From contig JAFVTV010000032.1 in assembly GCA_017502975.1 (NCBI GenBank), forward strand, positions 1 to 32,214: a DNA stretch of 32,214 nt. Direction: 5' to 3'. Position 1 is the first letter of the stretch, and every line of letters starts with the position of its first letter. The stretch comes from Clostridia bacterium (GTDB lineage: Bacteria; Bacillota; Clostridia; Oscillospirales; CAG-272). The position numbers and the translations under genes were made by a program. The notes under the pieces are model-generated. The model made no database searches, was not told where the DNA came from, and saw nothing but the letters and a program-made list of their open reading frames with translations. This document shows, in pieces, positions 5,090 to 25,072 of this stretch.

Positions 5090-5097
5090 TGCCGCCG

Positions 5098-5655: not shown

Positions 5656-5692
5656 ATGTTTCTCCTATTATAATGGTAACGTTATCCCTTTC

Positions 5693-5721: not shown

Positions 5722-5770
5722 TGTTTTTTATGTGAACTTTGCAAAAAGAACCGTGTTTCCTATCTTCGAA

Positions 5771-5807
5771 CGTAAAAAAGCTCCGCCATTGGCGGAGCTT
5801 TTTTACG
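5771..5807 (-). terminator. Terminator of the rplU-prp-rpmA operon
   Basis: A long symmetrical hairpin, AAAAAAGCTCCGCCA paired with TGGCGGAGCTTTTTT, lies four bases beyond the rpmA stop. Flanking A and T runs make it usable from both sides. Confidence 0.92.
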
Positions 5808-5811
5808 TCGC

Positions 5812-6090: not shown

Positions 6091-6140
6091 TGTGGTGTAT
6101 CCTCCTTAAAAATTTGTTGTTCCCTGAGGAACGCACGGAT

Positions 6141-6521
6141 TTATACGTAATCCCGATCTTCAACCTTGATGTTGAAGCCGCCGTCACCCGTAAACTCGTA
6201 CATATCGTCGTGCAAAAGCATGTCCTCAAGCATTTTGTAATAAGTGAGAAACAGCCCCGACACAGCAAATCGTACGCGCTCATCTGCCTCAAAGGCAGGC
6301 AGTGCGGAGGGGGAGCGAACGGAAATCACCGCATCTTCATCATGGATATCGTAAACGATCTTACCGTGGTAAATATCCTCTACGGCATCCACAATATACA
6401 TGGTGATGGAGGAAAGCATGGCGCAAAACGGATCGCTACCGTACTCGCCAAAGCCAACGTGGCCCTTCTCCTCAAATCCGTAAAAAATTCCGTCGCTTCT
6501 GAAAAAAGTAATGGTTGTCAT
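6141..6521 (-). CDS. prp: Ribosomal-processing cysteine protease Prp
   Basis: The 126-residue protein has the Prp layout: a short beta strand, then GHVGFGEYGSDPFCAMLSS. His21 and Cys33 are spaced like the catalytic pair of known Prp enzymes. It cleaves the N-terminal extension of L27, here MLRISLQFF, before ribosome assembly. It lies between rplU and rpmA, its usual position in Firmicutes, and starts five bases after the rplU stop. Confidence 0.95.
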   Translation of the reverse strand: MTTITFFRSDGIFYGFEEKGHVGFGEYGSDPFCAMLSSITMYIVDAVEDIYHGKIVYDIHDEDAVISVRSPSALPAFEADERVRFAVSGLFLTYYKMLEDMLLHDDMYEFTGDGGFNIKVEDRDYV

Positions 6522-6526
6522 TTGGA

Positions 6527-6838
6527 TCAGCCCTCAATAGCGGTAATCTGAACCTTGGTGTAGGGTTGACGGTGACCGAGCTTCTTCTTGGAGTCCTTCT
6601 TGGACTTGTACTTGAGAACAACGATCTTCTTACCCTTGCCGTTCTTAAGAACGGTTGCGCTAACCTTTGCACCCTCAACGTTGGGAGTACCAACCTTAAG
6701 TGCGCCGTCGCGGGACAGAGCCTTTACGCAGTCAAATACAACAGTTTCGTTTTCCTCAGCAGCAAGCTTTTCCACAAAAATGGTATCGCCTTCGCTGACC
6801 TTGTACTGCTTTCCGCCGGTTTCGATGATTGCAAACAC
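6527..6838 (-). CDS. rplU: 50S ribosomal protein L21
   Basis: The protein begins [18 protein letters not shown] and carries the L21 C-terminal [17 protein letters not shown] motif. Starting at the GTG at 6838 gives 103 residues, the standard L21 length, with AGAGGTG six bases upstream. A GTG at 6847 would add three residues but overlaps that ribosome-binding site. It is the first gene of the rplU-prp-rpmA operon. Confidence 0.96.
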
Positions 6839-6847
6839 GAAAAGCAC

Positions 6848-6923
6848 CTCTCTTTCTTTTAAGACTCGCTGACGGGGGCGTTGCCATGTGGCAAGCTTTG
6901 GAGCCCTTTACATGCGGCAAATT
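6848..6923 (-). promoter_or_regulatory. rplU 5' untranslated leader (possible L21 leader)
   Basis: About 75 transcribed bases separate the promoter from rplU. They include a short GCCACATGGC-type self-complementary stretch and a GTCTTAAAAGAAAG tail ahead of the ribosome-binding site. Firmicutes rplU operons often carry an autoregulatory L21 leader RNA, and position and length fit. I could not verify the fold. Confidence 0.4.
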
Positions 6924-6953
6924 ATTATATCATGCCAAACAAGTGCTTGTCAA
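6924..6953 (-). promoter_or_regulatory. Promoter of the rplU operon
   Basis: On the minus strand: -35 TTGACA (6948-6953), an 18-base spacer and -10 TATAAT (6924-6929). The -35 overlaps the last codons of the VanZ-like gene. Confidence 0.85.
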
Positions 6954-7420
6954 GAGGTTTTTAAATTTTTTTCTATTCTTTTATTTCTTATATATAATAT
7001 AAGCGAAAACACGGCAAATACAGCTGCCGTTCCGCACACACCACCCGTGCAATCCAGCAAAACATCAAGGATGTGTGGACCGCGCCCCGGCACAAAAATC
7101 TGAATGCACTCATCGATTACAGCAACAGGCACAAACACCAAGGGCGCGAGCAGATGCCAATGCCGGAAGCCATGCGCAAGCAAGCTGCCTGCCGCGAGCA
7201 CACCCAACACAAAGAACTCTAAAAAATGCGCTGTTTTACGTATCATTTTCGAGGTAACGTCAAAATCCACACCTACTCGGTCTAGCACCTCATTGCAAAA
7301 ATCCTGCACTTGACTGCTGGTATTGGAGGAAGTGCTGGCGGGAGCGAGAGAAAACTGCCAGATCACCACGCACCATACGAGCACAAGCACCGTAAGGATG
7401 CATTTTAAGTATTTTTGCAT
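6950..7420 (-). CDS. VanZ-like family membrane protein
   Basis: The 156-residue protein has four to five membrane segments and the VanZ family signatures: KTAHFLEFFVLG near residues 63-74, DECIQIFVPGRGPHILDV near 104-121, and a final GxVCGTAA-type helix. VanZ itself gives low-level teicoplanin resistance, but most VanZ-like proteins are of unknown function, and nothing here suggests a glycopeptide-resistance cluster. It has its own promoter, and its 3' end runs into the rplU promoter. Confidence 0.88.
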   Translation of the reverse strand: MQKYLKCILTVLVLVWCVVIWQFSLAPASTSSNTSSQVQDFCNEVLDRVGVDFDVTSKMIRKTAHFLEFFVLGVLAAGSLLAHGFRHWHLLAPLVFVPVAVIDECIQIFVPGRGPHILDVLLDCTGGVCGTAAVFAVFSLILYIRNKRIEKNLKTS

Positions 7421-7455
7421 GACGTTTCCCTCCTCTTTGCTTTAACGTTACTATC

Positions 7456-7485
7456 ATTGTAGCATAATTCCCTAAAAAAATGCAA
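7456..7485 (-). promoter_or_regulatory. Promoter of the VanZ-like gene
   Basis: Minus strand -35 TTGCAT (7480-7485), 18 bases, -10 TACAAT (7456-7461). A GAGGAGGG ribosome-binding site follows upstream of the ATG at 7420. Confidence 0.7.
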
Positions 7486-7531
7486 GCCTGTGTCTATAAG
7501 AAGTTTTTTGATGCAAATTACCCGAAAGAAC

Positions 7532-7560
7532 TTGCCTTTTTTGAAAAATTGTGCTATACT
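7532..7560 (+). promoter_or_regulatory. Promoter of tRNA-Arg(CCT)
   Basis: -35 TTGCCT (7532-7537), 17 bases, -10 TATACT (7555-7560), 14 bases before the tRNA. Confidence 0.7.
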
Positions 7561-7574
7561 AACTTCTGTTATCC

Positions 7575-7649
7575 GCCTCCATAGTTAAATGGATATAACA
7601 AGCCCCTCCTAAGGGTTAGTTGTGAGTTCGATTCTCGCTGGGGGTGCCA
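7575..7649 (+). tRNA. tRNA-Arg(CCT)
   Basis: The sequence folds as a standard tRNA: acceptor GCCTCCA/TGGGGGT, the D arm region GTTAAATGGATATAAC, anticodon loop CTCCTAA (anticodon CCT), T arm with TTCGATT, discriminator G and encoded CCA. It closely parallels bacterial tRNA-Arg(CCT). Its 3' half from the anticodon loop onward (7606-7649) is repeated at 8339-8382 and 11196-11240, so it is the integration target of mobile elements. No terminator follows it directly; the hairpin expected there is found beyond the last repeat. Confidence 0.93.
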
Positions 7650-8062
7650 CCAAGCGGTCTGCGTTAACTTTTGTAGGCTGCTTTTTTGATAGTTAATTCA
7701 ATTTATGAGCTATCTTGCAACCATCAACAACAAATTGCATACATAAGGGCAATTTGTGCCTTTCATTTCTCCCGCGTTTTCTAAAATTCAACAAGGAGGT
7801 GCCTAAAAACCTTTATTTAGGCTTAAAAAAGTACACGTTCTTTAAAGCAAAGCATTGTTATCCCCATTAAGCGAAAACCAATAGCATGGCGTTCCCGAAA
7901 CGACCACAACGGATTTCAGACATTATAAAAGTTCGCTCATATCATTTTCGCACGTTTATACCAAGGCTCTTATTCTTATTTTTTAGCACCTACCGATAAC
8001 CAAGGTCATCAGAAAATTCAGAAACGAGAATCTATTAATAAACAATAAGGAGATAATAACCA
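7650..8062. other. Left arm of the island, no gene seen
   Basis: No credible gene of any size was found. A GGAGGT-like stretch at about 7795-7800 leads straight into a small hairpin GCCTAAA (7801-7807)/TTTAGGC (7816-7822). Its position next to the tRNA resembles the attachment-proximal arm of an integrated element. Confidence 0.4.
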
Positions 8063-8212
8063 ATGGAAAAGATTTTTTGGGTAAAAGAAGGACAATTAGA
8101 TGAGATCAACGTATACCTCCAAAAAGGAGGCAGAGTAAAAACCATAGTTGCAGTTCCGGATGCAGAAGAAATTTATAAATCAGTAGCTTATATTGTAATA
8201 GAATTTGATTAA
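8063..8212 (+). CDS. Small island protein, 49 residues
   Basis: An ATG at 8063 with GGAG ten bases upstream opens a 49-codon frame ending TAA at 8212. The product starts MEKIFWVKEGQLDEINVYL and ends YKSVAYIVIEFD. It is mostly polar with alternating hydrophobic residues, and no signal peptide or membrane segment. It resembles small orphan proteins with a WVKEG...VNxxL...GxVKxI pattern found in clostridial accessory DNA, but I know no function. The ribosome-binding site and good start support it as a real gene. Confidence 0.55.
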   Translation: MEKIFWVKEGQLDEINVYLQKGGRVKTIVAVPDAEEIYKSVAYIVIEFD

Positions 8213-8297
8213 TCACGCTCACCGCCTTGTACACCCATTGTACACCCGTATATTACAACACATTATAAAAATCACAAATAAATACGAATTTTGCAGG

Positions 8298-8338
8298 AAA
8301 ATCACCCATTCGCAGATAAGCGTGACCACTTCTAAAAA
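8298..8338 (+). repeat. Element-end repeat next to the middle att copy
   Basis: This 41-base block matches 11155-11195 at 35 positions without gaps and directly precedes the tRNA-derived core. It starts AAAATCACCCATTCGCAGAT. Such conserved inner flanks are expected at the end of related integrated elements, where recombinase arm sites lie. A TTGTACACC motif (one or two copies) lies 50-100 bases further in at both ends. Confidence 0.65.
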
Positions 8339-8382
8339 CTCCTAAGAGCTAGTTATGGGTTTAATTCTCGTTGGGGGTGCCA
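8339..8382 (+). repeat. Middle att copy, diverged 3' half of tRNA-Arg
   Basis: CTCCTAAG through TGGGGGTGCCA repeats the tRNA 3' half with several substitutions in the T arm (TTTAATT instead of TTCGATT). It cannot complete a tRNA and is not under selection as one. It marks the junction between the two island segments. Confidence 0.8.
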
Positions 8383-8459
8383 CTCTCTTGAAAGGTAGTC
8401 GAAATGGCTACCTTTTTTCTTTGCCCTGCCGAGATTCCGCTACGGCTACCGCCTTGCGC

Positions 8460-8590
8460 TTTTTCCACCGTGTCATCCTGAGCGTAGTCGAAATCCGAGC
8501 AAAGCGAGGATCGAATGGTACGAAGTGCCATTCGGGATCTCGGTGGAAAAAGTTCGACTCGCTACGCTCGCTCAGAATGACACGGCAGGG
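8460..8590. repeat. Interspersed palindromic repeat (TGTCATCCTGAGCG type)
   Basis: The left arm CCGTGTCATCCTGAGCGTAG and the right arm ending GCTCAGAATGACACGG are inverted copies. Nested inside are CCACCG/CGGTGG and the hairpin CGAATGG (8512-8518)/CCATTCG (8528-8534). The unit resembles the widespread intergenic palindromes with TGTCATCCTGAG ends found in many bacterial groups. It lies between the middle att copy and the nuclease gene and encodes no protein. The rest of 8383-8732 holds no gene that I can support. Confidence 0.7.
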
Positions 8591-8732
8591 GTGGTTTCTC
8601 GCAAGGTGGGTATCCCACTTGGCGAAACGCTCGGAGAGGGGTTAAATTGTCAGAGTGATGGCAATTTGACCGCTCTCCTTATCCTGTTCCCTAAAACGTG
8701 TATTTTCGGGAATCTGTGTCCTATAAAAGCGA

Positions 8733-8761
8733 TTGATTTATTCACAGTTTTATGTTATAAT
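8733..8761 (+). promoter_or_regulatory. Promoter of the zinc-finger nuclease gene
   Basis: -35 TTGATT (8733-8738), 17 bases, -10 TATAAT (8756-8761), followed by GAGGTG ahead of the ATG at 8808. Confidence 0.7.
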
Positions 8762-8807
8762 TTATATAAATTATATAAACGATTTTACGAATTGCCGAGG
8801 TGTGTCT

Positions 8808-10501
8808 ATGGCTGAAAAGAAATATATAATCGACAATCCCGACCTTATGGCAGAATGGGATAGGGAAAAGAATAATGGACTTGGTTTGGAGCCAAAAAAC
8901 TATCATATGGGTTAAATACAAAAGCGTGGTGGATCTGTTCAAAATGTGGCAATCGTTGGCAAGCGAGAATAACTACACGTGCATCACGACATTCAGGGTG
9001 TCCATACTGTGCTCCAAATCAATCCAAGGTATCGGAGCATAATAGTTTATTGGCTTGCTTCCCAGACCTTGCAAGAGAATGGAACTATGATAAAAATGGA
9101 GTATTAACACCCGACAAAATACGCTTTGGTAGCAAGAAAAAAGTTTGGTGGAAATGTGCATTAGGTCACGAGTGGCAAGCGGTAGTAAGTTCTCGCACAA
9201 ATCCTTCAAGTGGTAGAGGTTGTCCAATATGTTATCGAGAATATAAAACATCCTTTCCAGAACAAGCTGTTTTCTATTATGTAAAACACTTTTTTGATGA
9301 TGCTATTAGCGGTTATATTTCTGACGGATTTGAAATTGATATTTTTATTCCGAGTTTGTCTTTTGGTGTTGAGTATGATGGTATGGCATACCATACCGGT
9401 AAGAAAAACGGGGATAAGGAAGAACGCAAAAATACATATTGCAAATCAAAAGGCATTAAACTCGTTAGATTAAAAGAAACAATTGACAATTTGCTTGCAG
9501 ACAGCGATGGTATTATATGGTGTCACTATACACCTAATAATACTTTCTTAAACAGTGCAATCAAGACTTTAATGTCACAATATCTATTAATAGCCAATCC
9601 CGAAGTAGATGTCACAAGGGACTCTATTGCCATTCAAGAGCAATATGTTTGTAGCGTAAAAGAAAAAAGCATCGCAACGCTCCACCCCGACATTGCAAAA
9701 GAGTGGCACCCATCTAAAAATGGCTCATTGAAGCCTGAATTTGTACGAGCAGCATCAAACAAAAAATATTGGTGGCTTTGTCCAAATGGTCACGAATATG
9801 ATATGACCGCGTTAAATCGCCACAACGGATATAAGTGTCCGTATTGTTCTGGGCGGCGCATATTGGCAGGATATAACGATTTGCAAACTCGCTATCCGCA
9901 AATTGCAGAGCAATGGGATTATGAGAAAAACGAGGGAGTAACGCCGCAAGAAGTAACATCAGGCACAACTAGGCGTTTTTGGTGGAGATGCAAAAAGGGG
10001 CATTCTTGGTACACAAGTATTACCGCACGTGTAGAAGGTGGAGGGTGTCCTTATTGCTCTCCGTATCAATCTGCGGTTTGCGAAGACAACTGCCTTGCTT
10101 CAGTAAACCCTGAATTATCTAAACAATGGGATGTTGTCAAGAACGGAAACCTTACCCCCTATGATGTGCGTCCAAATAGTGAACGCAAGGTGTGGTGGCT
10201 TTGCGACAAAGGACATTCGTGGGAAACATCTATTAAAACACGAAACAAAGGTAATAGTTGCCCGTACTGTAGCAATCAGAGAGTTCTTAAAGGATACAAC
10301 GATTTAGCTACAACCGATCCAGACTTGATTATAGATTGGAACTACGAAAAAAATGAGTCTGTACCGCCAGATTCTATTGCACACGGCTCAAACAAAATGG
10401 TTTGGTGGAAGTGCCACGTTTGTGGGTTTGAGTGGCAAACAAGGGTATATGTAAGGTATCAAGGACGTGGAAAATGTCCTACCTGCAAATCAATAAAGTG
10501 A
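8808..10501 (+). CDS. Treble-clef zinc-finger/PD-(D/E)XK nuclease, frameshifted near residue 30
   Basis: Read with one -1 shift between 8894 and 8913, this is a protein of about 564 residues. It has six repeats of the DUF4379 treble-clef type (WxxxKN...P...GS.KK.WW.C..GH.W......R...CPYC): two before and four after a nuclease domain. In corrected numbering the nuclease shows Glu152, Asp178 (EIDIF), Glu189-x-Asp191 (GVEYDG) and Lys208, the pattern of Vsr/DUF559-like PD-(D/E)XK enzymes. The frame closes at TAA 8913-8915, and the rest is open from about 8921 to 10501. A run of six A bases at 8894-8899, read A AAA AAC, is the likeliest site. It may be a lost base, an assembly error or a slippery site. 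Otherwise the gene looks intact. Confidence 0.8.
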
Positions 10502-10509
10502 GGGTTACA

Positions 10510-11034
10510 ATGGATAAAAGCACGGAAAAGGCTCTAAAACTACTACAAAATATTTCTTCGTTTGAGAAGATAAACAAAAAATTGTTATCGTTAAATCAAG
10601 AATATACCCCAAGAAGAGATTGCGATTATTTCGCTATTGAAGATTACTTTCCGTTTGTTTACGAAGAGTGTATTGAATTGCTTGTTGAGTTGGCTGTCTT
10701 TATGCGAAAGAAAAGCGAAAAATTCAAGGAGTATGGAGAATCCATAAATGCCAAAGTTAAATATTCAAATACAAGTAAGTATTTGGACGGGCGGGACATT
10801 ACTTTTGATGCAACGCTGTCAAAAATTATTCATGCAACGGATATATCTTTTGAGTTAAAATCTTTTGACGGAATGATTGGCTATGGATATGCAGTTGATA
10901 GGAACAGTTCCTTTACTGGTTTTGCTCTTATTTGTGGAGAGGAAAAAGACGGAACAAAATATCAAGCCAAAATCGACATTATAAAGTTTTGTGTAAATGT
11001 TTTTATGGTAACTGCACATCGCGATTATATTTGA
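10510..11034 (+). CDS. Island protein of unknown function, partner of the nuclease
   Basis: The 174-residue protein starts at ATG 10510, eight bases after the nuclease stop, with GAGGG upstream, so the two are one operon. It is soluble, with a helical N-terminal half (LLQNISSFEKINKKLLSL; EECIELLVELAVFMRKKSEKF) and a C-terminal half that looks mixed alpha/beta, with ITFDATLSKIIHATDISFEL and GFALICGEE. I recognise no family. A frame that opens at 10432 overlaps the nuclease and is less likely. Base composition is as AT-rich as the nuclease gene, fitting joint transfer. Confidence 0.75.
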   Translation: MDKSTEKALKLLQNISSFEKINKKLLSLNQEYTPRRDCDYFAIEDYFPFVYEECIELLVELAVFMRKKSEKFKEYGESINAKVKYSNTSKYLDGRDITFDATLSKIIHATDISFELKSFDGMIGYGYAVDRNSSFTGFALICGEEKDGTKYQAKIDIIKFCVNVFMVTAHRDYI

Positions 11035-11107
11035 TTGAGTGTCCCCCCCTTGTACACCTGCACATTACCGAGCACCGCAAAAGCCACTAGCAGACACACA
11101 ACCTACC

Positions 11108-11150
11108 AAGCGTAAAATCTGCCTTTTTGGTGGATTTTACGCTTATTTTA
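11108..11150 (+). terminator. Terminator of the island operon
   Basis: AAGCGTAAAATC (11108-11119) and GATTTTACGCTT (11133-11144) are perfect inverted arms around a 13-base loop, followed by ATTTTA. Confidence 0.6.
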
Positions 11151-11154
11151 CAAG

Positions 11155-11195
11155 AAAATCACCTATTCGCAGATAGGCGCGAACACTTATGAAAA
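11155..11195 (+). repeat. Element-end repeat next to the right att copy
   Basis: It matches 8298-8338 at 35 of 41 positions, including AATCACC, ATTCGCAGATA and the AAAA that joins the core. Both element ends therefore came from the same element family. Confidence 0.65.
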
Positions 11196-11240
11196 CTCCT
11201 AAGGGTTAGTTGTGAGTTCGATTCTCGCTGGGGGGTGCCA
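11196..11240 (+). repeat. Right att copy, 3' half of tRNA-Arg
   Basis: The block from CTCCTAAGGGTTAGTTGTGA through the CCA is identical to tRNA-Arg 7606-7649, except for one additional G in the final G run. It is likely the original chromosomal 3' end, displaced when the element inserted. Confidence 0.88.
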
Positions 11241-11279
11241 TATAGAAAAGCCCGCCTTGTGGTGGGCTTTTCTATATGG
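11238..11279 (+). terminator. Displaced native terminator of tRNA-Arg
   Basis: CCATATAGAAAAGCCCGCC and GGTGGGCTTTTCTATATGG form a 19-base-pair stem with one G-T pair and a TTGT loop, starting at the CCA of the right att copy. It sits exactly where a tRNA terminator would be before integration. Confidence 0.85.
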
Positions 11280-11280
11280 C

Positions 11281-11883
11281 GCTCTCAGCGTCAAATCGAA
11301 CAAGGTTGTTTGCGACGTTGCCGCAAACAACCTAACTTCGCAACATTGGCGCGCTGTATTACCCTCTCCCCTTTCACATTTTCTCTCTGGTTGACCGAAA
11401 TAATGACACAAGTCACAATCCCTTTTCGCGGGAAATGCGAAAAGGGATTTTTTATTATATTTTTTGCTTTATGAGAACCTATGCAATTCCCATTTTCTTG
11501 CTTTAATATATTCAATCTTAACAAAAAGGCGAACATTGTAACAATGTAACAGTTATTGTCGAAAAACTTCAAAATTTTCAACAAATAAAATAATTTTACT
11601 AATAAACATTAAGTTTCGACATATTTTCCTATAAAACATCGAAAAGAGATGATAAAATGCAAAAAACATCAGTTTTATTTTCAAAGGAATTTCCTAACTA
11701 GACACCTGCCACAATAATTATTCTGCACTATCAGAACCATATTTCGTGCTACGCTGTAAAATTTTGTTTACAAAGCAAAAATTCTGTCAGGTTCTTTTTT
11801 TGCTATTTTGTTTCTTATTGTGGACATCTCCTGTCCGCTTTAACTTATAAACTGTGTGCCAAAGGGGGTGAATTTGCTTTGGG
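11281..11883. other. Gene-free AT-rich stretch with hairpins
   Basis: No gene is supported. A perfect 11-base-pair hairpin GGTTGTTTGCG (11304-11314)/CGCAAACAACC (11322-11332) lacks a T run. ACATTGT-A-ACAATGT at 11533-11547 is a possible operator. The rest is AT-rich and probably includes the promoter of the HTH gene at 11884. Confidence 0.4.
11417..11456 (+). terminator. Strong intrinsic terminator
   Basis: AATCCCTTTTCGC (11417-11429) and GCGAAAAGGGATT (11437-11449), loop GGGAAAT, then TTTTTATT. No gene precedes it nearby, so it may end a transcript whose gene has been lost. Confidence 0.8.
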
Positions 11884-12237
11884 ATGACCGAACGCCGTGC
11901 GGCGCTACTGAAAACACTGTGCCGTAGACGGCATGAAACCGTATCCAATCTTGCCGTGGAATTCGGCGTCTCGGAGCGAACCATTCGTCGGGATATTGAG
12001 ATCCTTGGCTTGACAGAACCGATCTACACACAGCCAGGCAGATATGGCGGTGGCGTTTATGTTACTGAAAACTACTATATGGATCGCATATATTTAGGGA
12101 AACCGGAAATAGAACTACTTATCAAAATACTGCAAAACACTCAACTAAATCAGCCCTATATTCTAACAAATGAGGATGTCAGCATTATGCAAAAAATTAT
12201 AACCGACTATGCCAAGCCGCCAAAACGCAAAAAATAA
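11884..12237 (+). CDS. DeoR-type HTH protein of mobile-element origin
   Basis: The 117-residue protein starts MTERRAALLKTLCRRRHETV and contains the HTH segment VSNLAVEFGVSERTIRRDIE (about 21-40). The short linker IYTQPGRYGGGVYV and a C-terminal helical tail follow. This arrangement is common for stand-alone HTH proteins carried near recombinases in clostridial elements. AAGGGGGTG lies about 13 bases upstream of the ATG. No ligand-binding (WYL or sugar) domain is present. It lies just beyond the island and next to a decayed RHS gene, suggesting more eroded mobile DNA. It presumably regulates something no longer here. Confidence 0.8.
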   Translation: MTERRAALLKTLCRRRHETVSNLAVEFGVSERTIRRDIEILGLTEPIYTQPGRYGGGVYVTENYYMDRIYLGKPEIELLIKILQNTQLNQPYILTNEDVSIMQKIITDYAKPPKRKK

Positions 12238-12246
12238 AAAGATGCT

Positions 12247-12569
12247 ATGAATATGAGTAAAAACATTTTTTCTGCTTCTTTTCCAAATAGCGATAAGCTG
12301 ATGTCTTATGACGGCAAGACATTTGTTTACGATGATCTCGGTAAGCCGCGCACTTACAAAGACATTAAAGCAATATGAGAGTATGGCAGACAGCTGATGA
12401 GTTTTGACGACAGCACCTCTAGTTAGTAACCTCATTAAACAAAGCAACGGCCTGTAATTTCTGTGCGACCACACGGGTGTATTTGCTGTAAAGCACAATG
12501 GTTCCACCTATTTCTACAGATGGAATGCGCAAAACGACGTGATTGCGTATTCCTGTATTCTCTCGACAT
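12247..12569 (+). pseudogene. RHS/YD-repeat fragment, degenerate
   Basis: From 12247 the frame reads about 43 residues including DKLMSYDGKTFVYDDLGKP, a typical YD/RHS repeat, then a TGA at 12376-12378 where RHS proteins usually have Trp (before EYGRQLMSF). A TAG follows at 12424. In another frame, 12476-12560 reads GVFAVKHNGSTYFYRWNAQN, the RHS core pattern of the type GLKYNGxTYxYRKNAQGD. At least two nonsense codons and one frameshift show decay. RHS proteins are large polymorphic toxins or adhesins; only a short piece of the core remains. Confidence 0.75.
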
Positions 12570-12672: not shown

Positions 12673-13119
12673 TTATTTTTGCTCCTTAAGCTCGCGCAGC
12701 TCCGCAAGGAAGGTATCAAGATCCTTAAATTCACGATACACCGAGGCAAAGCGCACGTAGGCAACGTCATCGCGCTCCTTGAGCTTGTGCATGATCATTT
12801 CGCCAAGCTGATGCGATGCGATCTCCTGCACCAGAGAATTTTGAAGCTCCGCCTCAATTTCAGCGGCGATCTCCTCGCCCTTTACAGGTCGCTTTTGGCA
12901 AGCCTTCATAATACCGGACAGCATCTTGGAACGGTCAAACAGCTCTTTACTACCATCCTTTTTCACCACCAGGATCTGCATGGACTCAATGACCTCAAAG
13001 GTAGTAAAGCGCTTTTGGCAGGCAAGACATTCACGGCGGCGGCGAATGCTATTCCCCTCCTCAATGGGACGGGAATCGATTACTTTGCTATCTTGGTAAC
13101 CGCAGTTGGGACACTTCAT
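12673..13119 (-). CDS. nrdR: Transcriptional repressor NrdR
   Basis: NrdR represses ribonucleotide reductase genes in response to dATP/ATP. The protein has the N-terminal zinc ribbon MKCPNCG...RRRRECLACQKRFTTFE (four cysteines), followed by the ATP-cone domain. Starting at ATG 13119 gives 148 residues and the family's usual MKCPxCG N terminus; a TTG two codons upstream is in frame but less likely. The only ribosome-binding site, AAAGGTG (13144-13150), is 24 bases from the ATG and is separated from it by a perfect small hairpin. No nrd box or reductase gene is in the window. Confidence 0.95.
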   Translation of the reverse strand: MKCPNCGYQDSKVIDSRPIEEGNSIRRRRECLACQKRFTTFEVIESMQILVVKKDGSKELFDRSKMLSGIMKACQKRPVKGEEIAAEIEAELQNSLVQEIASHQLGEMIMHKLKERDDVAYVRFASVYREFKDLDTFLAELRELKEQK

Positions 13120-13129
13120 TTGCAAATTC

Positions 13130-13246: not shown

Positions 13247-15484
13247 TCAGAGCTCTCGCACGAGCGCCTCCATGCACTGCACCGCTTCCTCGGGCGAAAG
13301 GCGATCTGTGGCATACGCACTGCGAAGCAGCGCAGGGGGCAGGAGCGCATCAAATTTATCAAAGACGGGCATTTCAGACGGGAACACAAGCGCCTGTGCC
13401 TGCACGCCCCTTTGCGCGATACCTGCCAGCTGCTTTACAAACCGCCTGCCGTCACCCTCAAGATGGAATTTCAAATAGCAGCAGCCATCATATTCAATGC
13501 CGGAAATGCCAAGCTCGCGTGCATTTGCCGTAAGGATACGGCGCAATGTACGAAAGCCTCGCGTGCCAAGCCACGGAAACAGGCACCACGAGCTGCCGCC
13601 AATATGCAAGAGCGAGCGGTCGCAGATCCCCGTATTGCGCGCAAGATGCCGCGCCACCGCAAGGCGGTGAGCGGCGTTTTCCTTTAGATACGGATATACG
13701 GTATCCTCGCGAAGGACCTCTCTCATACGCTGTAGGATCTTGGTGTGTATCTCACCCATATCCCCGGGCCAGGAAACCTCCATTTTACCCGCAATGGGAT
13801 GCACATAAAGGAGCTTTCGCTGTATATCCAGCTCATCAACCTCCCACACGCGCCCGCCAAGTGCAAAGCGATCGCCAACGGGCGGCGGCGTGGTAATGGT
13901 GCCGATCTCCTCGGCAGTGCCGTTTTCTCCCGTAGCACGCACCGTGAAATCCTCACTGTCCTTAAACACGGCATAAAATTGGAAGCTACGTAGCAGCTTT
14001 TCTCCCGCAAGCCCCACAATAAGCCCCTTTTCTTCAATCAACTCCAAATAATCGCGGTTGACCATATCTACAAGCAGTGTGCGGTAATCCTCCTTTGAAA
14101 CGTGCGCAAAGGGGGGCATTGCCAAGATCTGCTCCGCAAGTCTTTTTGGGGTTTGTTCACCGCTTGCCGCCAATACACTTAAGGTTTGATGGAACAGCAG
14201 GCTCATGGGCATTTTCTTTTCGCGTGGGGGCTCAATAAAGCGCTCCTCAAGATAAAGCTGAATAATGGCAATGGCGCGGAGCAGGCTCCACGGCAAAAGC
14301 TGTGGCAAGGGGGTGTTGGGCAGAGGATCCTCCTCACGAAACACCATCATCATCTCAGGCGGCGCCCCACGCCTGCCCGAGCGCCCCAAGCGCTGCAAAA
14401 AACTGGATACCGATGTCGGCGCTTCGCTTTGCAGCACGCGCTCAAGGCGCCCGATATCAATGCCAAGCTCCATGGTTACCGTTGCACAGGTAACGGCACG
14501 CTCCTCGTCGTTTTTCATTTTCAGCTCGGCATCCTCGCGCAGTGCCGCGGAAAGATTGCCGTGGTGAATGAGGAAAATATCGGGATCGTGACGGCGCGCG
14601 GCGATCTGGCGGAATGTGGCGGTCAGATACTCCGTTTCCTCACGGGAATTGGAAAAGACGAGCGCTTTTTTATCCTTCACACAGTCGTACATGTATTCAT
14701 ATCCAACGTCAATACCGCCGCTTTTCTCACCCGTTGCAGCCCCTTTGTCATCCTCTTGTGCGGCGTTGTCATTGGCAAAGAAAAAATGCTCCAGCCCAAG
14801 CCGCCAACGCAGCCCCGTTGTGGGGACCTCCGGCACGTCACACGGCAGGTCGCTATCCCCTACCAACCACTTGGCGGCTAAGGCAGGGTCGCCAATGGTA
14901 GCAGAAAGCCCCACACGGCGCGGCTGCTTGCCGATCAGCCGTGCGATGCGTGACAGCTGACACTGGATCTGATTGCCGCGGTCACTGCCCGTTAAGGTGT
15001 GCACCTCATCGATCACCACAAAGCGCAGATCCCCAAACAGGCGAGGAATATCGTTGGAACGGTTGATCAGCATGCTTTCAAGCGACTCGGGCGTGATCTG
15101 CAAAATGCCCGCGGGCATATCAAGCAATCTTTTTTTCCTTGATGCCGCAACATCACCGTGCCAATGCGTGACGGGAATACCGCTTTCGAGGAGCAGCTCC
15201 TCCATGCGACCGAATTGGTCGTTGATCAGGCTTTTGAGAGGCGCAATATAAAGCACCCCAATGCTGCTTGACGGGCGCTCGCAAAGCAAGGATAGGATCG
15301 GAAAGAACGCCGCCTCGGTCTTGCCGCTGGCGGTGGTTGAGGTCAGCAAAAGATGGTGGTCGGTTTCAAATATCGTTTGTGCCGCCGCCACCTGCACGTT
15401 ACGCAAGCTCTCCCAGGAATGGGAAAATATATATTCCCGAACAAAGGGCGGAAAGCGCCCGAATATGCGATCTGCTTGTGACAT
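13247..15484 (-). CDS. Lhr/BrxHI-like DEAD/DEAH-box helicase
   Basis: The 745-residue protein is a superfamily 2 helicase acting on DNA or RNA in the cytoplasm. Motifs in order: TTASGKT (about 50-56, motif I), APLKSL (Ia), ITPESL (Ib), DEVH (159-162, motif II), GLSATIGD (III) and QRLGRSGRRG (VI). An Lhr-like C-terminal region of about 350 residues follows. I chose ATG 15484, ten bases after the ATPase stop, because AGAGGTG lies five bases upstream; the frame remains open 63 bases further but without such a site. It is the last gene of a three-gene operon with BrxD-like and TerB_N proteins. The helicase is closest in style to BREX type 2 BrxHI, but a housekeeping Lhr cannot be excluded by sequence alone. 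Confidence 0.9.
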   Translation of the reverse strand: MSQADRIFGRFPPFVREYIFSHSWESLRNVQVAAAQTIFETDHHLLLTSTTASGKTEAAFFPILSLLCERPSSSIGVLYIAPLKSLINDQFGRMEELLLESGIPVTHWHGDVAASRKKRLLDMPAGILQITPESLESMLINRSNDIPRLFGDLRFVVIDEVHTLTGSDRGNQIQCQLSRIARLIGKQPRRVGLSATIGDPALAAKWLVGDSDLPCDVPEVPTTGLRWRLGLEHFFFANDNAAQEDDKGAATGEKSGGIDVGYEYMYDCVKDKKALVFSNSREETEYLTATFRQIAARRHDPDIFLIHHGNLSAALREDAELKMKNDEERAVTCATVTMELGIDIGRLERVLQSEAPTSVSSFLQRLGRSGRRGAPPEMMMVFREEDPLPNTPLPQLLPWSLLRAIAIIQLYLEERFIEPPREKKMPMSLLFHQTLSVLAASGEQTPKRLAEQILAMPPFAHVSKEDYRTLLVDMVNRDYLELIEEKGLIVGLAGEKLLRSFQFYAVFKDSEDFTVRATGENGTAEEIGTITTPPPVGDRFALGGRVWEVDELDIQRKLLYVHPIAGKMEVSWPGDMGEIHTKILQRMREVLREDTVYPYLKENAAHRLAVARHLARNTGICDRSLLHIGGSSWCLFPWLGTRGFRTLRRILTANARELGISGIEYDGCCYLKFHLEGDGRRFVKQLAGIAQRGVQAQALVFPSEMPVFDKFDALLPPALLRSAYATDRLSPEEAVQCMEALVREL

Positions 15485-15494
15485 AGCACACCTC

Positions 15495-16868
15495 TCACAA
15501 AAGAATATCTGTAGGCTCAACAACGGCTCTTTGCGCGGCATTTGCACCGTTTTTCGACTCCGTTAGCACACTTTCCTGCTCGACCTGTGTCACAGCGGGT
15601 CCCGTGACACGCTCTAAGATTGTAGCAAAATCTATCTCGGGATTTTGCATCAGGATATTCAGAACGGTCATATAGTCGCGCAGGATCTCGCGCGGTGTCA
15701 TAAGGCTTTCCGCACCTGCGCGGGAAAGGCACACCTCAAGAAAGCGGATGCGCTCGGCGTCGCTGATTCGCGGCTCCTGCCCGTAGCACTGCGCGTAAAG
15801 CGCCGTAACGCGCACGATAAGCGCATAAAGCTCATCATCCGAAAGTCGGCGCAAGCGAATGACAGGGCCGATGAGATTTCTGAATTCCGCATCAAAAAAG
15901 CGGCTGTCGCAAAGGCGGCTGCGCAGAGCCTCGTAGCTGAAAAGACCGCGACGGGGGTCCTCTAAAAACTGCGGTGTGCCGCCAAGCACAAGCAAAAGCC
16001 CCTCTGCCTTGCCCTGCAGGGCGTCGTTGAACATAGACAGGATCTTTTCATAGTTGTTTTCACGGCTGACGCGATGCACGATCTTATAAAGGTTAACGCA
16101 CTCATCGATAAAGACAACAAAGCCTCGGTAGCCGATCTTTCTTGCCAGCACGGCAAAAAGCTTGATAAAATCATACCAATTTTCATCGTTTACGATCTCG
16201 GACACGTCGATGCCAAGGGCTCTCCTTGCCTCGGTTTTCGAGGAAAATTCACCGCGCAGCCAGCAAAGGCAGGCCGACATTTTATCATCGTCACCTGCAC
16301 AATACGCACGGTAGTATGCTGTGATCACACGCGCAAAATCAAAGCCGCCTACCATAAATTCCACATCACGCAGTGTTTCGGCAATACGCGCTTGCAGGAG
16401 TCTGCCGTCAGCGTCTTCCGTGCCGATTTCTGCTCTGCAAGCCGAGATCCATCTGGCAATGATCTTGGGCAGTGCGCCGCCATCGGGAGAAGCCTTGGAG
16501 GCAAGGTTTTTCATCAGCTCACGGTAGGTGGCAACACCCGTGCCGCCTGTGCCGTAAAGGCGGCGCTCGGGAGAAAGATCGGCATCGGCAGTTATAAAGT
16601 CTCGCTCGATCGCATAGCCGCGCACCAGCTGCATCAAAAAGCTTTTACCGCTGCCGTACCTACCGATGAGAAAGCGCATGGCGGCGCCCCCTTCGCTTAC
16701 GTTTTCAAGATCACCGAGAAAAGCCCCGATCTCATCCCTTCTGCCAATGGCAACATAAGGCGCACCCGTGCGCGGCACAACACCCGCCGCAAGCGAGGCA
16801 AGCAGCGAGGTCAGAATGCGGCGCGGTACGCGCATATCGGCACTTGTATGCTTTGTGTTTTCAATCAT
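15495..16868 (-). CDS. BrxD/DUF2791-like P-loop ATPase
   Basis: The 457-residue protein is an AAA+-like ATPase of the DUF2791 (BrxC/BrxD) group. It starts with a helical segment and has GRRDEIGAFLGDLENVSEGG just before the Walker A motif GRYGSGKS (69-76). A Walker B-type VFIDECVNL follows near residue 255, and a winged-helix-like C terminus includes PREILRDYMTVLNIL. The ATG overlaps the TerB_N stop as ATGA, and the helicase starts ten bases after its stop, so all three are co-translated. BrxD homologues in BREX are thought to load or power a DNA-associated complex; here the BREX methyltransferase and PglZ are absent. The DUF2791 assignment is strong, the role inferred. Confidence 0.9.
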   Translation of the reverse strand: MIENTKHTSADMRVPRRILTSLLASLAAGVVPRTGAPYVAIGRRDEIGAFLGDLENVSEGGAAMRFLIGRYGSGKSFLMQLVRGYAIERDFITADADLSPERRLYGTGGTGVATYRELMKNLASKASPDGGALPKIIARWISACRAEIGTEDADGRLLQARIAETLRDVEFMVGGFDFARVITAYYRAYCAGDDDKMSACLCWLRGEFSSKTEARRALGIDVSEIVNDENWYDFIKLFAVLARKIGYRGFVVFIDECVNLYKIVHRVSRENNYEKILSMFNDALQGKAEGLLLVLGGTPQFLEDPRRGLFSYEALRSRLCDSRFFDAEFRNLIGPVIRLRRLSDDELYALIVRVTALYAQCYGQEPRISDAERIRFLEVCLSRAGAESLMTPREILRDYMTVLNILMQNPEIDFATILERVTGPAVTQVEQESVLTESKNGANAAQRAVVEPTDILL

Positions 16869-18703
16869 GGTAAAATACCTTCTTCCTGTAATAATTCACG
16901 GTAATCCTCAATAATGGCATAATAACCGCCCATATCCTCAAGGATAATATCTCCGATGCTATCCCCCGCTACGGTGTTGATCTTATCGGCAATGGCATCG
17001 GGCATGCTGTTCATTTGCGTAGCAAAGGCACGCTGTGCCAAGGCATCACCACCATCGGCAAGGCGAACAAAGTCTGCCAGCTCACCAAGCATATCGGCAA
17101 GGCTTTTTTGCGCATTTTCCCCTGACGTGGGTGCGACTGTATCGGCGGTAAACGAAGGGGCGGCTTGCGCTTCTCTTACGCACTCCGGCAAGGAAATATC
17201 CTGTAACGGTGCGTGATTTTGCGACAAAGTATCTCTTTTTTCCTCCGCTTCACCACCCTCAAACGCCTCGATCAAGCGCCTTGTAGTCTGCCACGAGGTT
17301 GCCTCGATCGCTGCAGCCCGCTCCACTGACAGCACGCGCTTTGGAAGCTCGTAGCGTTGCTCGTATGCGGGCGGCTTTGCCGCCTCTTTCTTTGACTGCG
17401 ATTTTTTGGGCAGTGCTATGGCAAGAAACCGATCGATACGGGCAGAGAGCTCGCTTGAAACGCGGTAGACCGTAAGACGCGATTTGATCCCAAGCACCGC
17501 GCGAAGGGCATTTTCCGCATATTTGAGCACGTCGGTCACGATATACCGAAGCTCATACGTGTGCGAAAAGGAAACAAAATCCACCTCGATGCGTTTTTTA
17601 TAAGGGTATGCGCAGATCGCCCCCGAAAAGGCATCGCGCGTAACCGTACTGTGCCCGCCCAAAGAGGCGGCACCACCCCCGCGCTGCTCCTCAAGATATG
17701 CCAGCGTTTCCTTAACGGCGCCGCGCATCACAAGATCAAAATGCGGTATGGCGTCGCCGCGGTAAAACTTGCTCTTTTTATAATCGTAATTGCTGCAAAA
17801 ATACAGCACGGCATCAGTCATGGCATCCCCCACCGATGCCGATACATAAAACTCCCTCAAACGGCAACCCGTAAGGAGTTCACCGAGCAGGTCATCGGGT
17901 AGCCTTGGGGGTGGCAGACGGTAGAGCAACGAGTAATCACACAGCCATTCGCGCACGATGGCATCAAGGCGCGGATAACGAGAGCGATAGGAGAGCCATA
18001 AGCGCAGCATGGCTTCCTGCCCCTTTGAGGGCGAGATGGCATCCCCTAAGTTAATGATTTCATACAAATAGAGCAAAAGGTAAGAATAATCCACCGCAAG
18101 CGCCCTGCCCGAGCGAAAGGAGGTGCGCCACCAAAGATACCAATTCAGCTGTGCTCTGTTCAGCTGGGAATACTGCGGCATATAGGAAAAGAACGGCACC
18201 GCCTCGCACTCCCTTCCCTCAAGCGAAAAAAGCCTGCGCGCGTGTCTGCAAAATTCGGCATAATAGCTATACTCGTTTTTATGGGGATAGATCCGTACTC
18301 CGCGCAAAAGCATCCCCTCGGGGGAGTAGCTTGCCTCGGGCTCAGGTCTTTCCTGCTCCTCCTTGGCGTAAGTGGCAGATACATATTGCTTTGGCAGGGG
18401 CACATCCCCCACCATAACGGCATTGGTTGCGCTCATGCGCGTAACGGGCTGCTGCGGCGATGGCTGCGTTTTCGCCGCTTTGGGTGAGGATGCGCTCCGA
18501 TTTTCAGGCACGTCAAGTGCCAAAATTTCAATGTCACGGGGCACAGACGTGTTGCCGCTTACAGGGCGCTCCGACACCGCAATCTCAGCGGGGACAATTT
18601 CTCGGGGAGCGGGTGCTTGATACTGCGTGCGGCGGGGCGGCACCAGCGCTGAAATATCCCAAAAATCAACCGCGTTTTCTCTTTTTTTATCATCGTTTCT
18701 CAC
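16865..18703 (-). CDS. TerB_N/TerB_C domain protein
   Basis: The protein has 612 residues from the GTG at 18703, which follows a strong GGGGGTGAGG ribosome-binding site; the frame is open further upstream but reads through the promoter. After a disordered, proline-rich N terminus of about 115 residues comes the TerB_N domain, with GMLLRGVRIYPHKNEYSYYA and NRAQLNWYLWWRTSFRSGRA. A middle region with a Cys- and Tyr-rich stretch follows, then a low-complexity linker, and a TerB_C-like end (ADKINTVAGDSIGDIILEDM, YYAIIEDYRELL). TerB-type domains are helical modules of tellurite/stress-response systems. Here the protein heads an operon with an ATPase and a helicase, suggesting a scaffold or sensor for a DNA-processing complex. 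Domain calls are from recalled patterns. Confidence 0.85.
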   Translation of the reverse strand: MRNDDKKRENAVDFWDISALVPPRRTQYQAPAPREIVPAEIAVSERPVSGNTSVPRDIEILALDVPENRSASSPKAAKTQPSPQQPVTRMSATNAVMVGDVPLPKQYVSATYAKEEQERPEPEASYSPEGMLLRGVRIYPHKNEYSYYAEFCRHARRLFSLEGRECEAVPFFSYMPQYSQLNRAQLNWYLWWRTSFRSGRALAVDYSYLLLYLYEIINLGDAISPSKGQEAMLRLWLSYRSRYPRLDAIVREWLCDYSLLYRLPPPRLPDDLLGELLTGCRLREFYVSASVGDAMTDAVLYFCSNYDYKKSKFYRGDAIPHFDLVMRGAVKETLAYLEEQRGGGAASLGGHSTVTRDAFSGAICAYPYKKRIEVDFVSFSHTYELRYIVTDVLKYAENALRAVLGIKSRLTVYRVSSELSARIDRFLAIALPKKSQSKKEAAKPPAYEQRYELPKRVLSVERAAAIEATSWQTTRRLIEAFEGGEAEEKRDTLSQNHAPLQDISLPECVREAQAAPSFTADTVAPTSGENAQKSLADMLGELADFVRLADGGDALAQRAFATQMNSMPDAIADKINTVAGDSIGDIILEDMGGYYAIIEDYRELLQEEGILP

Positions 18704-18731: not shown

Positions 18732-18760
18732 ATTTTATCATGTAAGAGTCCATATGTCAA
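18732..18760 (-). promoter_or_regulatory. Promoter of the TerB_N-ATPase-helicase operon
   Basis: Minus strand -35 TTGACA (18755-18760), 17 bases, -10 TAAAAT (18732-18737). This near-consensus promoter starts transcription after the alternative upstream starts, confirming GTG 18703. Confidence 0.85.
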
Positions 18761-18876: not shown

Positions 18877-19812
18877 ATGCGCGTGATTCAATTAAATTAC
18901 AAGGCGGTACCCCTGTCGCTTGCAAACGGCTGTGGCCTTTGTCTTGGACATTTTGACGGCGTGCACATCGGTCACCGTGCGCTTGTTGACGAATTGAAGC
19001 GACTAAACGCCGCGCGCGAGCAAAAGCTGCCGCTTGGCGTGCTCTGTTTTACCACTCCGCCAACCGCAACCTTAAATAAATCCCCCACGCCGCAGCTCAC
19101 GACCCTTGAGGAGAAGCTGACACTTATGGGAGAGGCGGGGCTTGACTTTGCCGTGCTTTACGACTTCCCTGCGATCAAGGACATGTCCCCCATGCAATTT
19201 ATCGACGATATCCTCATTGGCGAGTGCAATGCAAAAATGCTGGTGTGCGGATTTAACTACTCCTTTGGCGCGCGCGGCGCAGGCACACCTACCGATCTTT
19301 TATCACACTTTGCCAGCAAAAACGGCCGTTCACTTTCCGTAATGCCACCCATCACCGATGGGCCTTATACGGTGAGCTCAAGCTTGATCCGCGCCATGCT
19401 GCAGGGCGGACACCCCGATGATGCCGCGCGCCTGCTCGGCCGTCCCTACTCACTTTCGGGCAAGGTAAAGGACGGACGCAGGCTCGGGCGCACCATGGGG
19501 CTGCCGACCGCAAACCTTACCTTCCCCGCCGAGGGTCTTGTACCAATGCACGGTGTATACGCCGTAACCGTAAAAATAGGCAACCGCACCCATACGGGCA
19601 TTTGTAACATCGGCGTGCGCCCAACGGTAAATAACGGCAAGGACGTAAACTGCGAAACCTTTATTTTTGATTTCAAGGGTGATCTTTACGGCAAGGATCT
19701 TGAGGTGTTCTTTTTGCGCTTCCTGCGAGAGGAACAAAAATTTGAGGATCTTGCCGCGCTGGAAGCGCAAATTCGGTGTGATATCGAACGCGCAAAAAAG
19801 TATTTTGTGTAA
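18877..19812 (+). CDS. ribF: Bifunctional riboflavin kinase/FAD synthetase
   Basis: RibF phosphorylates riboflavin to FMN and adenylates FMN to FAD in the cytoplasm. The 311-residue protein has the N-terminal nucleotidyltransferase with GHFDGVHIGH (24-33) and VSSSLIRAML. The C-terminal kinase domain follows from about residue 187, with GRPYSLSGKV, GLPTANL and ICNIGVRPTV. Both activities should be present. It has its own promoter and terminator and is divergent from the TerB_N operon. The usual truB/rbfA/rpsO neighbours are not here. Confidence 0.96.
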   Translation: MRVIQLNYKAVPLSLANGCGLCLGHFDGVHIGHRALVDELKRLNAAREQKLPLGVLCFTTPPTATLNKSPTPQLTTLEEKLTLMGEAGLDFAVLYDFPAIKDMSPMQFIDDILIGECNAKMLVCGFNYSFGARGAGTPTDLLSHFASKNGRSLSVMPPITDGPYTVSSSLIRAMLQGGHPDDAARLLGRPYSLSGKVKDGRRLGRTMGLPTANLTFPAEGLVPMHGVYAVTVKIGNRTHTGICNIGVRPTVNNGKDVNCETFIFDFKGDLYGKDLEVFFLRFLREEQKFEDLAALEAQIRCDIERAKKYFV

Positions 19813-23271: not shown

Positions 23272-23335
23272 GAGGTTTTTTAAATTTTTTCGGCGTTTTT
23301 TGCGCAATTTCTTCTTTAATGTGACAAACTATATA

Positions 23336-23364
23336 TTGACATTATATATATTAAATGTTATACT
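23336..23364 (+). promoter_or_regulatory. Promoter of the acyl-CoA synthetase/ior cluster
   Basis: -35 TTGACA (23336-23341), 17 bases, -10 TATACT (23359-23364). Transcription would start near 23371, which excludes the longer open frame from 23300 as the coding start. Confidence 0.85.
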
Positions 23365-23404
23365 AATCTTTGTATTTTTATTGTTGTTTTTGAGGTTTAT
23401 GATT

Positions 23405-25042
23405 ATGATCATTACGGATTTTCTTGAAAGTAATGCGAGGCAATTCCCCGATGACGTGGCGTTGGTTGAGATCAACCCCGCAGAAAAGGAAACCAGACGC
23501 ATGACCTGGCGTGATTACGAGCTGGTTGAACCGACGCTGCGCGCACCCTACTACCGTCGAGAGATCACTTGGCGCGTATTTGATGAAAAGGCAAACCGTT
23601 TTGCCAATGCCCTCTCGGCTCGTGGCATCGGCAAGGGCGACAAGGTTGCCATTTTGCTGATGAACTGCATCGAGTGGTTGCCGATCTATTTCGGAATTCT
23701 TAAAACAGGCGCGCTTGCCGTGCCGCTGAACTTCCGCTATGCTGCAAGCGAAATTACATATTGCCTTGAGCTTGCTGAGGCAGATGCTTTGGTATTTGGC
23801 CCCGAGTTTATCGGGCGCGTGGAGGAGATCGCCGATACGATCAGCCAAAACCGCTTGCTGATCTATGCAGGCGCGGGCTGCCCCTCCTTTGCCGAGGATT
23901 ATGCCGAAATGACCGCTGAGTGCTCGGGCGTTTATCGCACTCCCAAGATCTCTGAGGATGACGACGCCGCTATCTATTTTTCCTCGGGCACAACGGGCTT
24001 CCCCAAGGCGATCCTGCACTCGCATCGCGCTTTGGTGCACGCCTGCCGCACAGAGCAAAGCCATCACAGCCAAACACGTGATGACGTATTTTTATGCATT
24101 CCTCCCCTTTACCACACGGGCGCTAAGATGCACTGGTTCGGCAGCCTTCTTTCCTGCTCAAAGGCAGTGATCTTGAAGGGCACATCCCCCGAAACGATCC
24201 TGCGTGCCGCATCCGAGGAGCATTGCTCTATCGTGTGGCTCTTGGTGCCGTGGGCACAGGATATTCTTGCCGCGCTTGACAGTGGCAAGCTAAAGCTTTC
24301 AGATTACGATCTTAAAAATTGGCGCTTGATGCACATCGGTGCCCAGCCCGTTCCCAAGAGCCTCATTCGCCGCTGGAAGGAATACTTCCCGCATCACGAT
24401 TACGATACCAACTACGGCTTATCCGAGTCGATCGGCCCCGGCGCTGTGCACCTTGGCGTTGAAAACGTACACAAGGTCGGTGCCATCGGCAAAGCGGGCT
24501 TTGGTTGGGAAACCAAAATTACCGATGCCGTGGGGCAAGAGGTTGCACGCGGCGAGGTTGGCGAGCTTTGCCTGCGCGGCCCGGGTGTCATGAAGTGCTA
24601 TTACAACGATGAGGCGGCAACTGCTGCGACACTCCGTGACGGCTGGCTTTGCACGGGCGATATGGCAATGGAGGATGAGGACGGCTTTATCTTCCTTGTT
24701 GACCGCAAGAAAGACGTCATCATCACGGGCGGTGAGAACCTTTACCCCGTACAGATCGAGGACTTCCTTTCGGGCTTTGACAAGATCAAGGACGTTGCCG
24801 TCATCGGCTTGCCCGACGTACGTCTTGGCGAGATCGCGGTTGCCGTGATCGAGCTAAAAGAGGGCGTTAGCTGTACCGAAGAAGAGATTATGGAATTTTG
24901 CCAAAATCTGCCCCGCTACAAGCGCCCCCGCAAGCTGATCTTTGCCAAGGTGCCGCGCAACCCCACCGGCAAGATCGAAAAGCCCAAGCTCCGCCAGATC
25001 TACGGCGGCGAGCGTTTGGTCGCGGCACAAAATAACGGCTAA
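23405..25042 (+). CDS. AMP-binding acyl-CoA synthetase
   Basis: This 545-residue adenylate-forming enzyme activates a carboxylic acid to acyl-AMP and then acyl-CoA. Motifs: YFSSGTTGFPKA (P-loop), YGLSESIGPG (adenine site), DGWLCTGDMAMEDEDGFIFL, DRKKDVIITGGENLYPVQIE (hinge) and NPTGKIEKPKLR with the C-terminal catalytic Lys. I chose ATG 23405 with TGAGG nine bases upstream; ATG 23399 is also possible. It is the first gene of the cluster with iorAB and an arylacetate-CoA ligase. It may run in reverse to conserve ATP from the acyl-CoA made by the oxidoreductase, or activate a related organic acid; the substrate cannot be read. Confidence 0.9.
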   Translation: MIITDFLESNARQFPDDVALVEINPAEKETRRMTWRDYELVEPTLRAPYYRREITWRVFDEKANRFANALSARGIGKGDKVAILLMNCIEWLPIYFGILKTGALAVPLNFRYAASEITYCLELAEADALVFGPEFIGRVEEIADTISQNRLLIYAGAGCPSFAEDYAEMTAECSGVYRTPKISEDDDAAIYFSSGTTGFPKAILHSHRALVHACRTEQSHHSQTRDDVFLCIPPLYHTGAKMHWFGSLLSCSKAVILKGTSPETILRAASEEHCSIVWLLVPWAQDILAALDSGKLKLSDYDLKNWRLMHIGAQPVPKSLIRRWKEYFPHHDYDTNYGLSESIGPGAVHLGVENVHKVGAIGKAGFGWETKITDAVGQEVARGEVGELCLRGPGVMKCYYNDEAATAATLRDGWLCTGDMAMEDEDGFIFLVDRKKDVIITGGENLYPVQIEDFLSGFDKIKDVAVIGLPDVRLGEIAVAVIELKEGVSCTEEEIMEFCQNLPRYKRPRKLIFAKVPRNPTGKIEKPKLRQIYGGERLVAAQNNG

Positions 25043-25072
25043 TTTTATCACGACAAAAAGGAAACTGTATTT

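Follow-up and report, generated by a model that had tools for sequence, protein, structure and literature searches.

The window analysed here is a stretch of 32,214 nucleotides from Clostridia bacterium (assembly GCA_017502975.1, contig JAFVTV010000032.1, positions 1 to 32,214), a member of the CAG-272 lineage of the Oscillospirales. Three leftward genes at 13247-18703 form a compact operon, as seen in Table 1, and, judged from their sequences, this operon is Shango (SngABC). Reading the open reading frames (ORFs) confirmed the layout given in an earlier note on this DNA: SngA and SngB overlap by ATGA, and ten bases lie between the end of SngB and the ATG of SngC. The strong promoter claimed in that note was also found. 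Since the whole region holds 9 promoter-like sites against 5.3 expected, only the best of them, the one in Table 1, is persuasive.

Table 1. Features of the operon and its flanks in the window (lengths in amino acids, aa).
Feature	Position	Strand	Description
SngA	16865..18703	-	TerB_N/TerB_C protein, 612 aa; GTG start at 18703; N-terminal FWDI motif; variable linker
SngB	15495..16868	-	BrxC/D-type ATPase, 457 aa; ATG start at 16868; Walker A GRYGSGKS, Walker B VVFIDEC
SngC	13247..15484	-	Superfamily 2 (SF2) DExH helicase, 745 aa; ATG start at 15484
Promoter-like site, upstream of SngA	18732..18760	-	TTGACA-17-TAAAAT; 11 of 12 consensus positions plus TG
nrdR, downstream flank	12673..13122	-	Context only, outside the system; Pfam ATP-cone, Zn_ribbon_NrdR
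ribF, divergent upstream flank	18877..19812	+	Context only, outside the system; Pfam FAD_syn, Flavokinase

Pfam recognised TerB_N (2.3e-17) and TerB_C (1.9e-5; 25.4 bits, slightly below the cut-off of 26.3) in SngA, as the earlier note had proposed for the first gene. SngB matched BrxC_BrxD (9.8e-149), which we take to be the former DUF2791, and SngC matched DEAD (3e-27) and Helicase_C (1.5e-14), with a faint trace of WH_Lhr (0.0088). The PADLOC models for Shango matched all three proteins, at 2.6e-51 for SngA, 9.9e-160 for SngB and 4.4e-237 for SngC. The SngA model also matched 21/21 SngA rows from the window's family, and Pfam found TerB_N in all 21 and TerB_C in 20 of them. The TerB core PF05099 was not found by Pfam in these 21 proteins or in 4 further SngA, two of which came from plasmid Shango triads. 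A review table lists Shango under TerB PF05099 (PMC10952713). Since the SngA of plasmid triads also gave no Pfam match to PF05099, this domain does not separate Shango types. PDB sequence searches gave no match with the SngA and SngB profiles and returned Lhr-type and Ski2-type helicases with SngC.

The ATPase and the helicase had been likened to BrxD and BrxHI of bacteriophage exclusion (BREX) type 2, and the resemblance was borne out by PADLOC (BrxD model on SngB, 1.2e-46; BrxHI model on SngC, 5.7e-123). Such matches would be expected of a BREX type 2 system that had decayed or was incomplete, leaving only BrxD and BrxHI. However, the Shango models score more than 370 bits higher for each protein, the NCBIfam BrxD model gives SngB 154 bits against a cut-off of 350, and PglZ had no match in the window's genome (84% complete), so a BREX remnant is extremely improbable. 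Pfam found none of PglX, PglZ and PglW among 23 window ORFs, in agreement with the earlier note, PglX and PglW having been looked for in the window ORFs only. BREX type 2 remains a useful comparison in that a BrxC/D-family ATPase adjoins an Lhr/Ski2-like helicase (PMC12839542), whereas the window operon has a TerB protein as its third member. The same paper describes BrxD and BrxHI as a linked dyad with BrxD as a possible helicase loader, and its available part mentions neither TerB nor Shango.

Housekeeping Lhr-type helicases were rejected as an identity for SngC, as the score was 176 bits against a cut-off of 849 for PRK13767 and 113 against 1496 for PRK09751, both of which we take to be Lhr-type models. 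The ligase-associated DEXH helicase was also rejected (208.8 bits; cut-off 850). The helicases of Hachiman, Druantia and Dpd are, like SngC, SF2 helicases of defence systems, and they have partner proteins other than those of SngC. A published phylogeny groups SngC with BrxHI, DruE and DpdJ in what may be an SF2 clade specific to defence (PMC12278908).

Shango is already known from other bacteria. In Pseudomonas aeruginosa PA14, a TerB/ATPase/helicase operon inhibits many but not all phages, with a modest 10-100-fold drop in plaques and strong protection in liquid culture (PMC10250203). Evidence from Escherichia coli is cited in the same paper and is that of Millman et al. 2022 according to PMC10952713. 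Shango also occurs on E. coli genomic islands (PMC11096173) and is named among the systems found in rumen genomes (PMC13356809). The earlier note had inferred a methylation-independent DNA-sensing or DNA-remodelling system, perhaps antiphage, for which it knew no experimental description. The kind of system was right, whereas its novelty was not, as PADLOC identifies it as Shango, and the statement about experiments was wrong because plaque assays have been published. By analogy with the phage inhibition shown for Shango elsewhere, the system may have an anti-phage role in the window's clade.

The catalytic motifs are intact in the family. The Walker A pattern is kept in 81/81 SngB sequences and the strict Walker B pattern in 75/81, its D and E being invariant in 21 aligned rows. 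Helicase motifs I, II and III are present in 77/78 SngC sequences and motif VI in 75/78. These motifs argue for SngB and SngC being an active pair. At the SngA N-terminus, the FW motif was found in 66/77 SngA hits and is absent from three mobile-type rows. All three genes are under purifying selection, with a ratio of nonsynonymous to synonymous substitution rates (dN/dS) of 0.065-0.171 against two congeners, compared to 0.074-0.099 for ribF. Together with the lack of internal stops, this indicates that the operon is not a chance set of ORFs. Divergence relative to RpoB was 1.0 for SngB (median ratio), 1.3 for SngC and 3.7 for SngA, the last figure including the variable linker.

To describe the distribution of Shango in the window's family, we surveyed 196 genomes drawn evenly from a larger set; 116 of the 196 were rated good. 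Matches were accepted at E-values up to 1e-30 for SngC and 1e-8 for SngA, and the counts include genomes with mobile-type Shango (e.g., G026, G028, G095 and G157). SngB was found in 138 genomes (87 good ones; 55/71 genera), 133 of which had one match only. The corresponding numbers were 136 for SngC (88 good; 54 genera) and 137 for SngA (87 good; 56 genera). All three genes were present in 132 genomes, any of them in 141 and none in 55. The three tend to be kept together: SngA occurs with SngB in 136 of the 139 genomes having either, SngB with SngC in 134/140, and the whole set in 132/141. Within the window's genus, 17/21 genomes have SngB. Three of the negatives (G002, G005 and G012) say little since they have no ribF match either and the locus is probably missing from the assembly. 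In another congener, G017, nrdR and ribF lie back to back with about 200 bp between them, and the operon is absent. Across the order Oscillospirales, the PADLOC SngB model matched 69/295 genomes, 14/25 in the window's family and 55/270 outside it (two of the 55 weak). The best 80 of 587 confirmed SngB loci were from metagenome-assembled genomes, many from herbivore guts, labelled Clostridia, Oscillospiraceae, Ruminococcus, Clostridiales, Eubacteriales, Bacillota or uncultured bacterium. One genome, G071, has what appear to be core-type SngAB and SngC plus two divergent SngC (49% and 46%) and a piece of SngB (40%) on contig C374, the copies being spread over contigs C112, C240 and C374.

Not all relatives keep the three-gene order of the window, as a minority have SngC or SngA away from the other genes. 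We read the surroundings of SngB in 81 genomes, one being that of the window; 14 of the other 80 are further members of its genus. SngC is missing downstream in 18 of the 81 loci despite at least 3 kb of sequence there; locus L088, where the contig ends, was not counted. In 17 of these 18 genomes SngC lies on another contig (the G120 copy is partial). By contig number, SngB and SngC are on different contigs in 53/130 genomes, which is an upper bound because contigs break. The same caution about contig breaks applies to families f6 and f16, where the two genes are on different contigs in 10 of 12 genomes and on the same contig in 2. No conserved neighbourhood was common to the unlinked SngC loci. 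In genus g18, SngA is unlinked from SngB in three genomes (G037, G142 and G099) and was not found in a fourth (G184). Other arrangements were also seen: SngC as two ORFs about 2.5 kb after SngB (L108 of G100, 3533-9539), more than 3 kb between SngB and SngC (L094 of G142, 3427-10680), SngA on the opposite strand about 2.8 kb from SngB (L133 of G072), and SngA upstream of SngB beyond another gene (L149 of G107).

Splitting has a phylogenetic pattern. On an rpoB tree of 57 genomes, all 15 without an adjacent SngC (14 split genomes and G058) fall in one fully supported clade of 27, in which six genomes have no sng gene and G040 keeps SngC only. On an earlier rpoB tree, splitting took 4 changes compared to 13.1 when shuffled. 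Over the 57 rows, the presence of SngC tracks that of SngB in a mean of 6.7 of 7 independent pairs (median p 0.0156). The earlier note had made linkage in other genomes a test of its reading, and the answer is mixed: the genes are linked in most relatives examined, and in one subclade they are unlinked but co-retained. That they are retained even where dispersed is evidence from nature that the three depend on one another.

Inheritance was assessed by comparing the sng genes with rpoB. The mobile-type genomes G026, G028 and G157 were excluded from the core-type tree comparisons, and the partial G120 SngC from the comparison of 42 genomes. In the latter, Mantel r with rpoB was 0.68, 0.57 and 0.59 for SngA, SngB and SngC (p 0.0002 each), and 10, 13 and 13 of 39 rpoB splits were shared, against 0.2-0.3 by chance. 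With alaS as a yardstick, 28 of 30 genomes were usable (alaS was incomplete in G022 and G087). In these, the sng genes agreed with rpoB at r 0.54-0.64, with 5-6 splits in common and 1-3 conflicts, compared to r 0.36, 3/25 splits and 8 conflicts for alaS itself. Synteny also recurs: ribF is near SngB in 20/81 loci and nrdR in 21/81, covering nine genera together, and six loci, each from a different genus, have an alaS-like gene directly behind SngAB; alaS positions confirm five of these.

These results bear on whether the operon is an ordinary mobile Shango cassette that has become common through repeated horizontal gain. Shango is mobile elsewhere, as SngB relatives occur in 691 plasmid records, mainly from Klebsiella (449) and Salmonella (144); 542 of the 691 are predicted conjugative. 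Five viral contigs (L359-L363) encode SngB relatives of 39-41% identity; phage records gave no SngB match. Mobile-type Shango (PA14 cDHS1, E. coli islands and plasmids) has the same three protein families as the window, and in either type TerB_N and TerB_C were detected but the PF05099 core was not. Compact triads on a Paenibacillus plasmid and an Aeromonas plasmid also share the A-B-C order of the window. In contrast, the type found in the window sits on the chromosome, is near-core in its family and makes up its own SngB clade, with 38-52% identity to the listed plasmid SngB rows; in some genera its SngC or SngA is on a different contig. In an SngB tree that took 36 of the 78 core-type sequences, those 36 formed one clade with a support of 99, nearest to which were f6, f16 and f17; the types had been assigned by identity beforehand, so this clade is partly by construction. 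G026, G028 and G157 fall in a clade that mixes families, as a mobile cassette would, and joining them to the core clade was rejected (approximately unbiased test, p-AU 4e-35). Scattered absences and supported conflicts with rpoB, given below, also fit repeated gain. However, the general agreement with rpoB, the recurrence of sites beside ribF/nrdR or alaS across genera, and the fact that unlinked genes cannot travel as one cassette make this explanation very unlikely.

We consider it likely, in conjunction with the mode of action proposed below, that this family keeps Shango on its chromosomes as a near-core system passed on mostly by vertical descent. It would be a partly dispersed variant that is more like an inherited part of the chromosome than a roaming cassette. 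Several points weigh against this. Supported conflicts with rpoB number 1 for SngA, 2 for SngB and 5 for SngC in the 42 genomes, and the sng genes agree with alaS at a Mantel r of only 0.25-0.48, with 3-5 conflicts (28 genomes); because of both, some transfer is likely. The absences of the system show no clustering on the rpoB tree (8 changes against a mean of 8.7 after shuffling, 175/500 shuffles being as low), whereas core-type presence alone was clustered on the earlier tree (8 changes; 12.8 shuffled). SngAB is present in G058, where SngC was not found in the genome, while G040 and G145, of one genus, have SngC without SngAB. The split subclade offers only 2 independent pairs, too few for a co-loss test. 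Also, our literature search gave no experiment on the window's clade, and the proposed mechanism is by analogy. In our reading, inheritance has been mostly vertical, with repeated losses and a degree of transfer; single-gene trees of fragmented genomes cannot settle this.

Alternatively, the family may have co-opted its Shango genes for maintenance of the host genome (repair, fork restart or chromosome processing), so that phage defence is no longer their main role. Near-core presence with mostly single SngB matches, the RpoB-like pace of SngB, dN/dS values of SngB and SngC similar to that of ribF, and the decay of gene order while the three genes stay could all be explained in this way, as could the lack of PADLOC matches in the two further window ORFs tested. 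However, SngB is missing from 29/116 good genomes, which, with the scattered absences and the intact site without the operon in a congener, shows that the operon is dispensable. The divergence of SngA at 3.7 times that of RpoB, linker included, is what would be expected of a defence sensor. We regard a switch to maintenance as unlikely. The system may serve as stable innate immunity or may have shifted to genome maintenance, and we favour the former because the genes are absent from a quarter of the good genomes.

For the preferred reading, resident Shango defence, we propose the following action. SngB, an ATPase of the BrxD kind (ORC/Cdc6-like AAA+), would assemble and load or activate SngC on aberrant DNA, for example that of a phage or plasmid during replication. 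The TerB_N/TerB_C partner SngA, which evolves fastest, may recruit or gate the SngB-SngC pair, and its FW motif, variable linker and rapid change suit a sensor or adaptor. Unwinding by SngC would then stop replication or lay the DNA open to host nucleases. None of the three proteins showed a methyltransferase or nuclease domain, so the system probably distinguishes self from non-self by DNA structure.

Pfam was given 23 window ORFs, the three sng genes and 20 others including nrdR and ribF; 19 of the 20 matched Pfam families, among which no defence family was recognised. PADLOC, run on two further ORFs only (9050-10501 and 10432-11034), gave no match. Both lie in a part of low guanine-cytosine content (0.38-0.43) beside nrdR, at 8000-12500, which is possibly an insert; the first encodes a DUF4379 treble-clef repeat protein with five stretches, and the second has no Pfam match. 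A ferredoxin-oxidoreductase-like pair (25073-26815 and 26803-27384) lies between two AMP-binding-enzyme genes in the region 23300-28723. The distance from SngC to nrdR differs among the genus loci compared (the window, L077, L078 and L082-L087), from about 0.1 kb in the window to 7 kb in L083; the interval holds varied ORFs and may be an insertion hotspot.

Our literature search, from which subscription papers were mostly absent, gave no report of a core-genome Shango in Clostridia or of Shango in Oscillospiraceae, none of a vertically inherited Shango among the matches listed, and no match for TerB together with DUF2791. Shango itself is known; what the searched papers do not describe is that it can be resident across a family and partly dispersed. 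The usual picture of a defence system is a mobile cassette, whereas here a known one looks resident, with its own clade and with genes that are partly dispersed and co-retained. More tentatively, and with considerable doubt on our part, Shango could be a core chromosomal function in a family of gut Clostridia, one whose genes have drifted apart as housekeeping genes do yet are kept or lost together, and which may guard against both phage and damaged self DNA. The relatives with linked, split and lost versions provide a clean test bed for what Shango does.

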